DNA from: Rhodococcus sp. IEGM 1381
Lineage (GTDB): Bacteria > Actinomycetota > Actinomycetes > Mycobacteriales > Mycobacteriaceae
DNA length: 64,000 bases
Reading direction: 5' to 3'
NCBI RefSeq assembly: GCF_030056795.1
Contig: NZ_JASHKQ010000003.1
Span: 124,001 to 188,000 of the forward strand
This document shows, piece after piece, positions 7,892-13,491 of the stretch; positions within the stretch are counted from its first letter, which is position 1; each line of letters starts with the position of its first letter. The notes under the pieces were generated by a model. That model was not told the origin of the DNA. It was given only the letters and a program-made list of their open reading frames with translations, and did no database searches. The position numbers and the translations under genes were made by a program.

Positions 7892-7963
7892 GTAGAGCCC
7901 GCGACACCAACCGGGAGCATGCAGCACGATTCCTTGTCGTACCGATGCTGCACGATGGACGGT

Positions 7964-10081
7964 ATGACGACAGCGACGCACGCGACCGTGGGCAACTTGC
8001 GCGATGACGCCGAGAGGTTGTTGCGCGAGCTAGCCGGCCCCGACGCTGTGTTGCGGGACGACCAGTGGACGGCGATCGAGGCCTTGGTGGTGCACCGTCG
8101 ACGTGCTCTGGTGGTGCAGCGAACAGGCTGGGGAAAGTCTGCCGTCTATTTCATCGCGGCGAAGCTTCTGCGCGCTCAGGGCCTGGGTCCGACCGTCATC
8201 GTCTCCCCCTTGTTGGCGCTGATGCGTAACCAGGTGGCCTCCGCCGAGCGCGCAGGCGTTCGAGCAGCCACGATCAACTCGGGGAACATGACCGAGTGGG
8301 ACGACATTCACCAGCAGGTCAACTCCGGTGAGCTCGATGTGTTGCTGGTCAGTCCCGAGCGTTTGAACAACCCCGATTTCCGCGATCAGGTGCTGCCGTC
8401 CCTGGCCGGGGACGCCGGCCTCGTCGTGGTCGACGAGGCGCACTGCGTCTCCGACTGGGGCCACGATTTCAGGCCGGACTACCGGCGTATCCGTACTCTG
8501 ATCGCCGAGCTGCGCGACGGCATCCCCGTACTCGCGACCACTGCAACGGCAAACGACCGTGTGGTCGACGACGTCGCTGCACAATTGGGCGTCGGCGGCG
8601 GTGACACCCTGGTACTGCGCGGCGGGCTCGCCCGGGATTCGCTGCGCATGGCGGTGGTGAAGATCGACAACGCCACCGAACGGGCCGCCTGGCTCGGCGA
8701 CCACCTGAAGACTCTGCCCGGGTCCGGAATCATCTACACCCTCACGGTGTCGGCGGCCAAGGACCTCGCGGCGCTGTTGACCGATCAGGGCCACGTCGTA
8801 GCCTCGTACACCGGTCAAACGGACCCGACCGAGCGCGAATCGCTCGAGGGTGATCTGCTCGCCAACCGAGTCAAGGCACTCGTCGCCACGTCCGCGCTCG
8901 GCATGGGGTTCGACAAGCCCGATCTCGGCTTCGTGGTGCACATGGGGGCTCCATCGTCTCCGATTTCGTACTACCAGCAGGTCGGCCGTGCCGGGCGCGC
9001 CACAGAACGAGCCGATGTGGTGCTGCTCCCCGGCCACGAGGATCGGCAGATCTGGAGCTACTTCGCCTCGGTCGCCTTCCCCCGCGAACATCTGGTGCGG
9101 CAGGTCATAGATGCCTTGAACACCGAGAAGGCTCAATCGACGCAGGCACTGGAGCCGCTGGTCGAGCTGAATCGCAGCAGGCTCGAGATGGTCCTCAAGG
9201 TCCTCGACGTCGACGGAGCGGTCAGACGCGTTCGTGGCGGCTGGATGGCCACCGGGGAGCAGTGGACGTACGACGCGGCCCGTTACGAGCGCCTCGAACA
9301 AGCGAGGGACCGCGAACAGCAGGCCATGATCGACTATCAGGCCACGGACGGGTGCCGGATGGAGTTCCTGCGTCGGCAGCTCGACGATCCCGACCTCGGT
9401 GCACCGGGTAGCGAGTCCGACCGCTGCGGACGGTGTGACAACTGCACGGGTGAGCACCTGTCTGCTTCCGTCGACGCGGCCTCGGTCGATTCGGCGAGAG
9501 CACGGCTCGATCGGCCGGGGATCGACCTGCAGCCGAGAAAGCAGTGGCCGAGCGGTATGAAGAAGCTGGGCGTGTCTCTCTCGGGCAAGATCGCCGATCC
9601 ACACGAGCCGGGACGTGTCTTGGGTCGCTTGACCGACCTGGGCTGGGGTAGCCGCTTGCGGGCTCTGCTCGACGCGCCCGATGCCCCTGCCAACGAGGCT
9701 CTCGAAAAAGCCTGCATCACAGTGCTGGCCAACTGGGACTGGAAGCAGCGGCCCGCTGCCGTTCTCGCCCTCGACTCCCCCACCCACCCGCTCCTGGTGC
9801 GTTCGATCGCCGCGCGATTGGCGGCCGTCGGCAAATTGCAGGATCTCGGGGTGATGCAGGTCAGGCCCGGTCATCCGCCGGTATCAGCCGCCAATTCGGC
9901 GTTTCGGGTCGCCGGGCTGGTGGACTCGTGGGAGGTTCCGGACGTATCGTCCGTACCAGGGCCGATTCTGTTGATCGATCTGCTGACCGACACCGGGTGG
10001 ACGTTCACCTGTGCCACGTCTGCTCTGACGTCAGCGGGCGCTTCGGCAGTGTTGCCGTTCGCCTTGGCAACACCGAAATAG
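7964..10081 (+). CDS. recQ: RecQ-like ATP-dependent DNA helicase with PRTase-like tail
   Basis: 705 aa from ATG 7964 (MTTATHATVG). Helicase motifs run in order: a motif I variant QRTGWGKS (Lys near residue 58), motif II VVDEAHCVSDWGHDFRPDY, motif III ATTATAN, and motif VI HMGAPSSPISYYQQVGRAGR. A RecQ zinc-binding cysteine set follows (CRMEF... CGRCDNC, about 465-490). The last 75 residues are unlike E. coli RecQ: GPILLIDLLTDTGWT resembles a phosphoribosyltransferase PRPP loop, with Leu replacing the second Asp. Similar tails occur in actinobacterial RecQ-family proteins as far as I recall. It unwinds DNA in repair and recombination. Its stop is only about 20 bp before the ect promoter. Confidence 0.9.
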   Translation: MTTATHATVGNLRDDAERLLRELAGPDAVLRDDQWTAIEALVVHRRRALVVQRTGWGKSAVYFIAAKLLRAQGLGPTVIVSPLLALMRNQVASAERAGVRAATINSGNMTEWDDIHQQVNSGELDVLLVSPERLNNPDFRDQVLPSLAGDAGLVVVDEAHCVSDWGHDFRPDYRRIRTLIAELRDGIPVLATTATANDRVVDDVAAQLGVGGGDTLVLRGGLARDSLRMAVVKIDNATERAAWLGDHLKTLPGSGIIYTLTVSAAKDLAALLTDQGHVVASYTGQTDPTERESLEGDLLANRVKALVATSALGMGFDKPDLGFVVHMGAPSSPISYYQQVGRAGRATERADVVLLPGHEDRQIWSYFASVAFPREHLVRQVIDALNTEKAQSTQALEPLVELNRSRLEMVLKVLDVDGAVRRVRGGWMATGEQWTYDAARYERLEQARDREQQAMIDYQATDGCRMEFLRRQLDDPDLGAPGSESDRCGRCDNCTGEHLSASVDAASVDSARARLDRPGIDLQPRKQWPSGMKKLGVSLSGKIADPHEPGRVLGRLTDLGWGSRLRALLDAPDAPANEALEKACITVLANWDWKQRPAAVLALDSPTHPLLVRSIAARLAAVGKLQDLGVMQVRPGHPPVSAANSAFRVAGLVDSWEVPDVSSVPGPILLIDLLTDTGWTFTCATSALTSAGASAVLPFALATPK

Positions 10082-10126: not shown

Positions 10127-10257
10127 CGCCTGACCGGCACCGATCATGTGAGCACCATCACATTCGGCGGTTAACCTGGGGAAGCGTGTCCGATTGCGGG
10201 GTCGATTTCTCGGCGCAGTCGATATGCCTCGGCAACGTTGTTACGTTTGTATTTCCT

Positions 10258-12084
10258 ATGAAGCCCGCATTGCTGAGAGGTACCCCGCTCACTGCGCCGG
10301 ACGCAGTGAAGTTTCGTAAGCCACAGATCTCCGACGGAGTCCGGCTCTGGGAGATCGCAAGAGATTCACGAGTTCTGGACCTCAACTCCAGCTACTCGTA
10401 CGTGTTGTGGTGCCGTGATTTCGCGGCCACCACCGTCGTATCCGGTATCGACGGCCGCGCAGTCGGTTTCGTCACCGGATACATCCGCCAGGACGCCCCG
10501 CGCACACTGTTCGTGTGGCAGGTCGCCGTGGATGCGGACCAGCGTGGCAAGGGACTTGCCGGTCGCATGCTGATGGAGCTGCTCGACCGCCTCGAACCAC
10601 AGGGCATCACGCATCTGGAAACGACGATCAGCCCGGACAACGAAGCGTCCATCGCAACCTTCACGAGTCTTGCGCGTAAGCGAGGCACCGACATCGTCAG
10701 GTCGGATTTGTTCGCGCCCAACGATTTCCCTGATAGCCACGAAGCCGAAGAGCTCTACACAGTGGGCCCCGACGCATCGCGGAATTACGAAAGGAACAAG
10801 CAGAACATGACCGAAAAGAACACCGTAACAACAGAGAAGCCCGATATATTCGAGACCGTCGAGTCCGGCGTGCGTAGCTACAGTCGCCAGTGGCCCGCCG
10901 TGTTCACCACCGCGAAGAACTCGGTCATCACCGACGAAAACGGCAACGACTACCTCGATTTCTTCGGTGGCGCAGGGGCACTCAACTACGGCCACAACAA
11001 CGACATGATCAAGAGCGCGTTGGTCGACTACATCACCAGCGATGGCATCACCCACGGACTCGACATGTCCACCGTCGCCAAGCGAGAATTCCTCGAGTCG
11101 TTCAAGAAGAACATCCTCGACCCCCGCGGCTTGGACTACAAGGTTCAGTTCCCCGGACCGACGGGCACCAACACCGTCGAGGCAGCGCTCAAGCTCGCTC
11201 GCAAGGTCACCGGCCGCGAGGCGATCATCAACTTCACCAACGCATTCCACGGCATGACGCTCGGCGCGCTGTCGGTCACCGGCAACTCGATGAAGCGAGC
11301 TGGCGCCGGAATACCGTTGGTGCACACCACTCCGATGCCGTACGACAACTACTTCGGCGGCGTCACCGAGGACTTCCAGTGGTTCGAGCGCGTTCTCGAC
11401 GACTCGGGCAGTGGATTCAACCGTCCGGCCGCGGTGATCGTCGAGACCATCCAGGGCGAGGGCGGAATCAATGTCGCGCGCCCGGAGTGGTTGCGCGCGT
11501 TGGCCGAGCTGTGCTCACGCCGTGAGATCCTGTTGATCGTCGACGACGTGCAGATGGGCTGCGGACGCACCGGCCAGTTCTTCTCGTTCGAGGAGGCCGG
11601 CATCACCCCGGACATCGTCACCCTGTCCAAGTCCATCGGCGGCTACGGCATGCCGCTGGCGCTGACCCTGTTCAAGCCCGAGCTGGACGTCTGGGCAACG
11701 GGTGAGCACAACGGCACCTTCCGCGGCTTCAACCCGTCGTTCGTCACGGCCAAGGCAGCCATCGACCACTACTGGTCCGACGACAAGTTCGAGAAGGAAA
11801 CCCTCGCCAAGGGCGAGCACATTCAGGATCGATTCATCAAGCTGTGCGCCAAGTTCGACGGCATCTCGACCCGCGGTCGCGGCATGGTCCAGGCCTTGGT
11901 GTTCGACGACGCCGAGTTGGCCGGCAAGGTGTCGCAGCTGTGCTACGACGAGCGTCTGCTCGTCGAGACCGCAGGCCCCAAGGACGAGGTCGTCAAGCTT
12001 CTTCCCCCGTTGACCACGACGATCGACGAGCTCGACCGCGGCCTGGACATCATCGAAAGTGCAGTGGCAAAGGTCCTCTCCTGA
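10258..12084 (+). CDS. ectA: EctA (diaminobutyrate acetyltransferase) reading directly into EctB
   Basis: From ATG 10258 (MKPALLRGTPLTAPDAVKF) the frame stays open for 608 codons. Residues 1 to about 165 are EctA, a GNAT acetyltransferase that makes N-gamma-acetyl-2,4-diaminobutyrate. Visible are FVWQVAVDADQRGKGLAGRM (acetyl-CoA loop) and the family ending AEELYTV. No stop follows: about 18 linker residues (GPDASRNYERNKQN) lead straight to the ectB start Met at codon 184. The linker DNA still contains a ribosome binding site (AAAGGA at 10790-10795). So the product could be a 608-aa EctA-EctB fusion, with free EctB also made by internal initiation. Normal EctA is about 160-190 aa and separate. 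Transcription is probably SigF-dependent. Confidence 0.85.
   Translation: MKPALLRGTPLTAPDAVKFRKPQISDGVRLWEIARDSRVLDLNSSYSYVLWCRDFAATTVVSGIDGRAVGFVTGYIRQDAPRTLFVWQVAVDADQRGKGLAGRMLMELLDRLEPQGITHLETTISPDNEASIATFTSLARKRGTDIVRSDLFAPNDFPDSHEAEELYTVGPDASRNYERNKQNMTEKNTVTTEKPDIFETVESGVRSYSRQWPAVFTTAKNSVITDENGNDYLDFFGGAGALNYGHNNDMIKSALVDYITSDGITHGLDMSTVAKREFLESFKKNILDPRGLDYKVQFPGPTGTNTVEAALKLARKVTGREAIINFTNAFHGMTLGALSVTGNSMKRAGAGIPLVHTTPMPYDNYFGGVTEDFQWFERVLDDSGSGFNRPAAVIVETIQGEGGINVARPEWLRALAELCSRREILLIVDDVQMGCGRTGQFFSFEEAGITPDIVTLSKSIGGYGMPLALTLFKPELDVWATGEHNGTFRGFNPSFVTAKAAIDHYWSDDKFEKETLAKGEHIQDRFIKLCAKFDGISTRGRGMVQALVFDDAELAGKVSQLCYDERLLVETAGPKDEVVKLLPPLTTTIDELDRGLDIIESAVAKVLS
10807..12084 (+). 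CDS. ectB: Diaminobutyrate-2-oxoglutarate aminotransferase
   Basis: 425 aa when counted from the internal ATG 10807 (MTEKNTVTTEKPDIFETVES), which has AAAGGA 11 bp upstream. EctB is a class III PLP aminotransferase converting L-aspartate semialdehyde plus glutamate to 2,4-diaminobutyrate, the first step of ectoine synthesis. Motifs: FPGPTGTNTVEAALKLARKV near residue 117, DDVQMGCGRTG near 248, and the PLP lysine in TLSKSIGGYGMP near 275. It is in the same frame as ectA with no stop between (see the ectA entry), so it may exist both alone and as the C-terminal domain of a fusion. ectC follows 40 bp downstream. Confidence 0.93.
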   Translation: MTEKNTVTTEKPDIFETVESGVRSYSRQWPAVFTTAKNSVITDENGNDYLDFFGGAGALNYGHNNDMIKSALVDYITSDGITHGLDMSTVAKREFLESFKKNILDPRGLDYKVQFPGPTGTNTVEAALKLARKVTGREAIINFTNAFHGMTLGALSVTGNSMKRAGAGIPLVHTTPMPYDNYFGGVTEDFQWFERVLDDSGSGFNRPAAVIVETIQGEGGINVARPEWLRALAELCSRREILLIVDDVQMGCGRTGQFFSFEEAGITPDIVTLSKSIGGYGMPLALTLFKPELDVWATGEHNGTFRGFNPSFVTAKAAIDHYWSDDKFEKETLAKGEHIQDRFIKLCAKFDGISTRGRGMVQALVFDDAELAGKVSQLCYDERLLVETAGPKDEVVKLLPPLTTTIDELDRGLDIIESAVAKVLS

Positions 12085-12124
12085 AGACCTGTTCGCACAC
12101 ACCGATATCGAAGGAGGACATCGT

Positions 12125-12523
12125 ATGATCGTTCGCACCACACAGGAGATCACCGGCACCGACCGTGACATCTCGAGTGAAGACGGCAACTGGCGCAGCA
12201 AGAGAATCATTCTCGGCGGCGACAAGGTCGGATTCTCGTTCCACGAGACCACGATCCAAGCCGGCACGGTGAACAACTTCCACTATGCCAACCACGTCGA
12301 GGCAGTCTGGTTGATCGAAGGCGAGGGAACGCTTACCGACCGCGAGACCGGAGAGACCTACGAGCTCGGTGCGGGATCGATGTACCTGCTCAACGGACAC
12401 GAGCGCCACACGGTCGAGCCGCGTACCCAGATGCGCATGCTGTGCGTGTTCAACCCTCCCGTCGTCGGCAACGAGACCCACGACGAGAACGGCGTGTACC
12501 CCCTCGTCGAGGTACCTGCGTAA
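12125..12523 (+). CDS. ectC: L-ectoine synthase
   Basis: 132 aa cupin enzyme that cyclises N-gamma-acetyldiaminobutyrate to ectoine. ATG 12125 is chosen because it follows a near-ideal AAGGAGG (12111-12117). The protein starts MIVRTTQEITGTDRDISSED, as in the family, and shows the cupin core NNFHYANHVEAVWLIEGEG (about 56-74) and YLLNGHERHT. Length is typical. No ectoine hydroxylase (ectD) or ectoine transporter follows; the next gene is a sirtuin behind a strong hairpin. The window therefore supports ectoine, not hydroxyectoine, synthesis. Confidence 0.95.
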   Translation: MIVRTTQEITGTDRDISSEDGNWRSKRIILGGDKVGFSFHETTIQAGTVNNFHYANHVEAVWLIEGEGTLTDRETGETYELGAGSMYLLNGHERHTVEPRTQMRMLCVFNPPVVGNETHDENGVYPLVEVPA

Positions 12524-12542
12524 CACTCACTCGTACACCGGC

Positions 12543-12589
12543 CCGTACCGACGCGCACGCGTCCGTGCGGGCCGACTGCGTCGGTACGG
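12543..12589 (+). terminator. Compound hairpin after the ect operon
   Basis: Two perfect 12-bp arms, CCGTACCGACGC (12543-12554) and GCGTCGGTACGG (12578-12589), enclose a smaller hairpin GCACG-CGTC-CGTGC (12555-12568). It lies 20 bp past the ectC stop. There is no U-tract, so it is a GC-rich terminator or an mRNA-stabilising end rather than a classic Rho-independent terminator. Confidence 0.45.
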
Positions 12590-12624
12590 TGCCCATATTG
12601 CGATCGATCGCTACCCTGGACGAA

Positions 12625-13491
12625 GTGAATGCACTCACCACGTCCGCGACTACGTACGGGCAACTCACCTCGCTGCTCGACGGTCGGACGATCACCGTCG
12701 TCAGTGGTGCGGGCATGTCCACCGACTCCGGTATTCCCGACTATCGCGGCCCGCAGTCGCCGCCTCGCAACCCGATGACGTTCCAGCAGTTCATCGGCGA
12801 CGCCGAGTTCCGTCGTCACTACTGGGCCCGCAACCACGTCGGGTGGCGGCACATGGACGCTGCAGTGCCCAACGACGGACACCGAGCGCTCGCCCGGCTC
12901 GAACGTGCAGGCGTCGTCACCGGAATCATCACCCAGAACGTCGACATGCTGCACACCAAGGCCGGCAGCCGGAACGTCATCGACCTGCACGGCGTCTACG
13001 CCCGGGTGCGCTGTCTGAACTGCGAGCGGTTGATCTCGCGGTTCGAGTTGGCCCGAAGACTCGATCGCGCCAATCCCGGCTTTCTCGAATCCGTCGCACC
13101 CGCGGACGGTGTCGAGATCGCTCCCGACGCCGACGCCATCATCTCCTCCACCGAACACTTCCGGATGGTCGATTGCGAGACATGTTCCGGCATACTCAAA
13201 CCCGACATCGTCTACTTCGGCGAAAGCGTACCCAAGCCACGCGTGGCCGAGGCCTACGATCTGGTGGACCGGAGTGACGCACTGGTGGTGCTCGGCTCCT
13301 CGCTGACCGTCATGTCCGGCCTACGTTTCGTCAGGCACGCGTCCAAGACCGGAAAACCGATCGTCATCGTCAATCGCGGGACCACTCGCGGCGACGAATT
13401 CGCCTCTCTCACTGTGCATGCGGGTTGCTCCGAGACCGCGACGGCGCTGGCCGACACTCTCGATCAGGCGGGCACCAGATCGTCGGCGTGA
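12625..13491 (+). CDS. SIRT4-like NAD-dependent protein deacylase (sirtuin)
   Basis: 288 aa from GTG 12625; longer frames would overlap ectC. Sir2 motifs: [15 protein letters not shown] near residues 29-43, [12 protein letters not shown] near 108, and the catalytic His in VIDLHG near 120. Four zinc cysteines are present (CLNC and CETC). The stretch [12 protein letters not shown] is characteristic of class II (SIRT4-like) sirtuins, not the E. coli CobB class. The predicted reaction is NAD-dependent removal of acyl groups from protein lysines, giving nicotinamide and O-acyl-ADP-ribose, or possibly ADP-ribosylation. It lies 100 bp downstream of ectC. Its 3' end overlaps the convergent proB by 28 bp. 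Confidence 0.9.

Follow-up and report, generated by a model that had tools for sequence, protein, structure and literature searches.

Ectoine is a salt-protectant that is also made industrially as a stress protectant. In the established pathway, EctB supplies diaminobutyrate, which EctA then acetylates. Two other bacterial systems are relevant here for their gene layout: CheA and InfB are each encoded by a single frame that yields a long and a short protein through an internal start. The locus described below lies in a 64,000-nucleotide stretch of the genome of Rhodococcus sp. IEGM 1381 (contig NZ_JASHKQ010000003.1, positions 124,001 to 188,000), which we call the window and to which all coordinates refer. 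It resembles the ordinary ectABC operon in gene order, in the protein families encoded, in the ribosome-binding site and start of ectB and in the presence of ectC downstream, but it differs in that neither a stop codon nor a change of frame separates ectA from ectB, and it encodes no free form of EctA. As in CheA and InfB, a second ribosome-binding site and an ATG are found inside one frame; unlike in those cases, the long product here would join two consecutive pathway steps, and the short one would amount to an entire enzyme of the pathway that elsewhere stands by itself.

The initial annotation of this DNA, made from the sequence alone, knew of no well-described EctA-EctB fusion, and we likewise found no published natural one in the open-access literature. 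The section on gene organisation in PMC5924519 covers rearranged and separated ect genes and no fusion, and the portions of PMC6915088, PMC5550956 and PMC13206832 available to us contain no report of a natural EctA-EctB fusion. Both the enzymes and this sort of event are known; it is the ectAB arrangement for which we found no description in that literature. A natural EctA-EctB fusion that has been kept for long already provides the means to ask whether flux gains from joining the two enzymes, with unfused species of the same genus as a natural comparison. The locus is also a gene fusion in which the downstream gene kept its own start; if by design it yields two products, it would be an example, from the ectoine pathway, of a natural metabolic fusion with a dual output.

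As listed in Table 1, EctA and EctB follow one another in a single frame on the plus strand, which runs without a stop for 608 codons from the ATG at 10258 to the stop codon at 12082–12084 and is open from 9928 onward. When the translation was compared with the NCBIfam profiles, residues 19–171 matched TIGR02406 (EctA; 178.3 bits, cut-off 120.6) and residues 196–604 of the same protein matched TIGR02407 (EctB; 636.7 bits, cut-off 552.2). The single uninterrupted ectA-ectB frame proposed in the initial annotation is thereby borne out, with both families above their curated equivalog cut-offs within one protein. The source genome holds one above-cut-off copy of each, and among the 25 best of the 71 NCBIfam matches to the fused protein there was no family for an EctA-EctB fusion. 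The EctB part contains the motif SKSIGGYG, which we take to be that of the catalytic PLP lysine. ectC is a separate gene and begins 40 nt 3' of the fused one.

Table 1. Features of the ectAB locus (positions in the window)
Feature	Position	Strand	Evidence
Extended -10-like element TG-T-TACGTT, TGTTACGTT	10239..10247	+	TGTTA invariant in 25 loci chosen for alignment
EctA part, diaminobutyrate acetyltransferase, residues 1–167	10258..10758	+	TIGR02406 above cut-off
Linker, residues 168–183, TVGPDASRNYERNKQN	10759..10806	+	48 nt, stop-free in 30/30 clade genomes
Internal Shine-Dalgarno GAAAGGA, codons 178–180, inside the open frame	10789..10795	+	AGG and AAC invariant in 30/30
EctB part, diaminobutyrate--2-oxoglutarate transaminase, starting at an internal ATG	10807..12084	+	TIGR02407 above cut-off; ATG in 30/30
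ectC, ectoine synthase, separate gene	12125..12523	+	NF009806, 189.4 bits (cut-off 128)

The stretch joining the two enzymes is somewhat shorter than the roughly 18 residues first estimated: 14 residues lie between the end of the EELYTV sequence (residue 169) and the ectB methionine (residue 184). In an AlphaFold model of the fused protein (mean pLDDT 70.1, pTM 0.63), the last EctA strand is placed at residues 166–170, so that the linker residues 168–170 would complete it, and directly after it residues 172–194 have pLDDT below 50, which is consistent with a flexible tether. The geometry of the model is not firm, with pLDDT of 25–69 per block of ten residues in the EctA half and below 50 at EctB residues 329–356. 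The solved relatives of EctA (3d3s, 6sk1 and 6slk) were matched up to residue 171, after which the present protein has 437 residues more; those of EctB (6rl5 and 9s1q) match residues 196–606, and here that part is preceded by EctA and the linker in the longer form, the predicted short form being an ordinary EctB.

Comparison of the junction with related Rhodococcus, which the initial annotation had suggested, showed how widespread the fusion is. EctA was found in 37/37 genomes of the genus. Thirty of these, the source genome included, are fused, with exactly 48 nt from EctA residue 167 to the ectB ATG, and two more (G012 and G013) are fused through a different, 63-nt linker; their sister G017 has a stop and is one of five unfused members (G001, G002, G005, G017 and G035). 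An artifact of sequencing or assembly could be entertained because the source genome is a draft of 43 contigs. However, the same open junction with its identical length recurs across those 30 genomes, among them the single-contig G010, G015, G028 and G029; we therefore rule out this explanation, whose probability is negligible. Both domains thus occur in one uninterrupted frame that is conserved across species, as expected of a natural fusion.

In an EctB tree, the 30 fused genomes form one group (printed support 85); G012/G013 and G077, a member of another genus of the family, are placed elsewhere, beside unfused sisters. The fourth case, in G936 from a distant family of the same phylum, has a longer linker; the G077 and G936 cases are represented by one genome each, both fragmented drafts. 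From these placements, the EctA-EctB fusion probably arose at least four times. Only one lineage in our surveys carries it across many species, and there a single origin, in the common ancestor of the 30-genome clade, is most likely, with retention since. The tree and the shared junction support an old, clade-wide inherited state as opposed to a strain oddity.

Among the best 80 of 590 loci retrieved from a collection of named genomes, 12 were fused and 87–99% identical to the window, the ones that bear a species name being R. fascians, R. kyotonense and R. yunnanensis; these 12 probably overlap the 30 clade genomes. R. trifolii has ectA and ectB unfused. The surveys proper covered the Actinomycetota, other phyla having entered through a plasmid list alone. 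At the family level (EctA-type match in 326 of 401 genomes), the assessment was confined to the best places listed, and of the frames of at least 580 aa listed outside the genus, G077 was fused and G162 and G108 were not. The class survey (394 genomes, 95 with a match) gave 45 checked loci, in which three places are counted a second time; the two fused ones belong to the 30-genome clade, and in two more no ectA was detected. Long frames in G504, G630:C154 and G600:C21 were left out of this set, as were places in G086, G552, G174, G227, G243 and G721 where the match already held stops. At the phylum level (396 genomes, 40 with a match), one of 17 places checked was fused, namely G936, and two lacked a detected ectA. 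The family of G936 itself (35 genomes, 14 with a match) offered 16 loci, of which G936 was the sole fused one and five were without a detected ectA. The other checked loci with both genes have ectA and ectB separate, and no fusion was annotated among the 25 of 676 plasmid records listed, four of these 25 being unannotated there.

As to how the fusion arose, the initial annotation had pictured an ordinary spacer whose stop codon was lost while the ribosome-binding site survived. A natural fusion with a surviving site is supported for the 30-genome clade, but stop loss is only one route to it. Three sister genomes that lack the fusion (G001, G002 and G005) have an ectA tail of 16 codons that continues through the ribosome-binding site to a TGA overlapping the ectB start, and this start lies at an offset of 47 after residue 167 versus 48 in the fused genomes. 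Since these overlapping genes are one base out of register, a frame shift in such a pair is another route; the junction could have formed either way, and the tree favours neither.

We then asked how the linker evolves, using neutral simulations on a tree of 30 tips (length 6.2) whose scale was set from 220 fourfold sites. No stop appeared at any of the 30 tips in 3.7% of runs when all 48 nt were free (P = 0.037), in 9% when TVG and the Shine-Dalgarno sequence were held fixed (P = 0.09) and in 24% when only codons 171–177 were free (P = 0.24). With a P value that depends in this way on the bases held fixed, the lack of stops is insufficient as proof; missing stops across the clade are, by themselves, weak to moderate evidence. 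The substitutions are more telling. For codons 171–177 of the 30 genomes, parsimony counted 11 changes at position 1, 10 at position 2 and 22 at position 3, versus neutral means of 33, 31 and 30; the sum for positions 1 and 2 was not as low in any of 400 simulations, and the ratio was as low in one of the 400. By this pattern, the linker evolves like coding, translated sequence. Residue identities in it are loosely conserved, and the reduced change at positions 1 and 2 suggests that the residues have some importance, if only for folding or stability.

Length was compared as well: the 30 genomes show no length change in the linker versus 16 by parsimony in the ectB-ectC spacer (15 without L024, whose ectC start was missed by the search pattern; the other 29 spacers span 38 to 106 nt), a comparison to be read with the ribosome-binding site in mind, as this site holds part of the linker and the two sequences are not both wholly free. 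The ectB-ectC spacer itself measures 40 nt in the window (12085–12124), 81 nt in L020 and 106 nt in L027, where it contains repeated CCCCTGAACCACCGT-like units.

Some other candidate signals at the junction were tried and dropped. A +1-frame stop in codon 169 (GTA-G) was rejected, GTA occurring in only 26 of the 30 genomes, and so was slow synonymous change in windows starting at codons 147–148, where the ratio of 0.28 lies above the 5% shuffle quantile of 0.21. The predicted RNA fold at the junction was no better than those of shuffled sequences (z +1.42), and Rfam gave no match at the gathering threshold between 9500 and 13000.

The linker DNA does still carry a ribosome-binding site, as first proposed: GAAAGGA stands 11 nt upstream of the ectB ATG. 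Of the codons beneath it, the first is GAA in 29 genomes and GAG in one, and the other two, AGG and AAC, do not vary; nor does the ATG, in all 30 fused genomes. AGG is the rarest arginine codon in the fused frames (46 of 1077), and 30 of its 46 occurrences are at this very site. The predicted energy of the duplex with the anti-Shine-Dalgarno sequence ranges from −9.6 to −9.9 kcal/mol in the 30 fused loci; in 74 unfused loci the median is −9.5 (range −13.5 to −1.0), with the caveat that starts were picked automatically within a limited range and some of the unfused picks may be wrong. Two loci from other fused lineages gave −6.2 (L114) and −9.3 (L120). The 16S anti-Shine-Dalgarno tail was not found in the source draft genome; the sequence is present in 5/5 close relatives searched.

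The frame thus contains a conserved internal ribosome-binding site and start codon, as a dual-start gene would. With AGG-AAC and the ATG unchanged in 30 genomes, both elements look selected and unlike the leftover of an old spacer, and free EctB is therefore probably made too, from the internal start.

Taken as a whole, these sequence comparisons make it likely that ectAB is a naturally fused gene with two translation starts, giving both a fusion protein and free EctB. Since no stop follows 10258, a ribosome from the ectA start must make the fusion, which would be an EctA-linker-EctB chain of 608 residues. A second ribosome entry at 10789–10809, to judge from the conservation and strength of the site, would give a free EctB of 425 residues. 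EctA would then exist only tethered to EctB, unless cleaved, and EctB both tethered and free. The tether would put consecutive pathway steps on one flexible chain and, the EctB and EctA steps being consecutive, a local transfer of diaminobutyrate is conceivable. If fused and free EctB also assembled together, the make-up of such mixed oligomers would set the ratio of the two activities. That the gene is a dual-product one by design in this full sense, with a tethered enzyme pair channelling diaminobutyrate and free EctB tuning the EctA:EctB ratio in mixed oligomers, is a tentative idea that we consider unlikely as it stands.

The fusion might instead be a tolerated accident: two tightly packed genes would have lost their separating stop or frame by chance, the tether would do no harm, free EctB from the internal start would supply the transaminase activity, and the fused state would persist without bringing any benefit. 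Chance would indeed scatter fusions as we see them, at four points across the trees and surveys, three of these being limited to one or two genomes (G012/G013, G077 and G936); the unfused sisters G001, G002 and G005, whose ectB start is displaced by a single base relative to the fused genes, and the not very improbable absence of stops in the clade (P 0.037 to 0.24) fit as well. Yet none of the 30 clade genomes has reverted, the linker has kept its length while the next spacer changed 16 times, and the scarcity of changes at codon positions 1 and 2 suggests that its residues matter. On balance, we regard such an accident as close to an even call, on the unlikely side.

The initial annotation had raised channelling of diaminobutyrate from EctB to EctA. 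On this view, the fusion was kept because handing over the intermediate within one chain makes ectoine faster or lets less diaminobutyrate escape. That the two steps are consecutive, that the linker has a constant length in 30/30 genomes and that it is predicted to be flexible would all suit this explanation, which we nevertheless find doubtful, as a retained start for free EctB dilutes strict channelling and most relatives examined encode EctA and EctB separately. The linker might also be cut after translation, separate EctA and EctB being the working forms; being predicted as disordered (pLDDT <50), it could be protease-sensitive, but a cut product would need no kept internal start, and we hold this to be quite improbable. 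Our preferred reading remains that of a fused gene with two starts.

Upstream, the ATG at the 10258 position is found in all 30 fused genomes, and the extended -10-like element of Table 1 ends 10 nt before it. Reading this element as a promoter, we would predict that transcription starts only a few bases before the ATG; with the element at this distance and its TGTTA invariant, ectA may be leaderless, or nearly so. L055, L101 and L102 share this element and carry an additional 14 bases after it, in which there is a possible ribosome-binding site.

Just inside ectA, a perfect 7-bp dyad, CACTGCG-CCGGA-CGCAGTG (10290–10308, codons 11–17), is present in 30/30 genomes of the fused clade; 14 other loci, mostly from rhodococci, have CACCGCG-CCGGA-CGCGGTG at this place, changed on both sides. 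The invariant codons between 4 and 18 show no synonymous changes versus about 40 expected. The dyad, a short way behind the ectA start, may be an operator or form an RNA hairpin; the fold predicted for RNA of the region around this start was, as a whole, no better than those of shuffled sequences (z −0.34).

No match to the ectoine hydroxylase EctD (TIGR02408) was found in the whole genome, but as the control genomes were equally without one, this does not establish that EctD is absent. The fused gene is flanked upstream by a RecQ-family helicase gene (7919–10081), whose product passes TIGR00614 (223.6 bits, cut-off 219.8) and falls far below the RecQ equivalog TIGR01389 (271.1, cut-off 640.2), an atypical RecQ-like protein. 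Directly after ectC, 12442–13491 encodes a Sir2-type NAD-dependent deacetylase that scores just below the PRK05333 cut-off (301.4 versus 305).

Two records stood out by their names. The ectA-ectB junction of L085, titled Rhodococcus rhodnii NRRL B-16535, is most like that of Kibdelosporangium aridum (L084), and the entry may be mislabelled or contaminated. The ect junction of L053, titled Kitasatospora arboriphila, is nearly the same as that of Williamsia muralis (L049, L050), possibly as a result of mislabelling, contamination or recent transfer.
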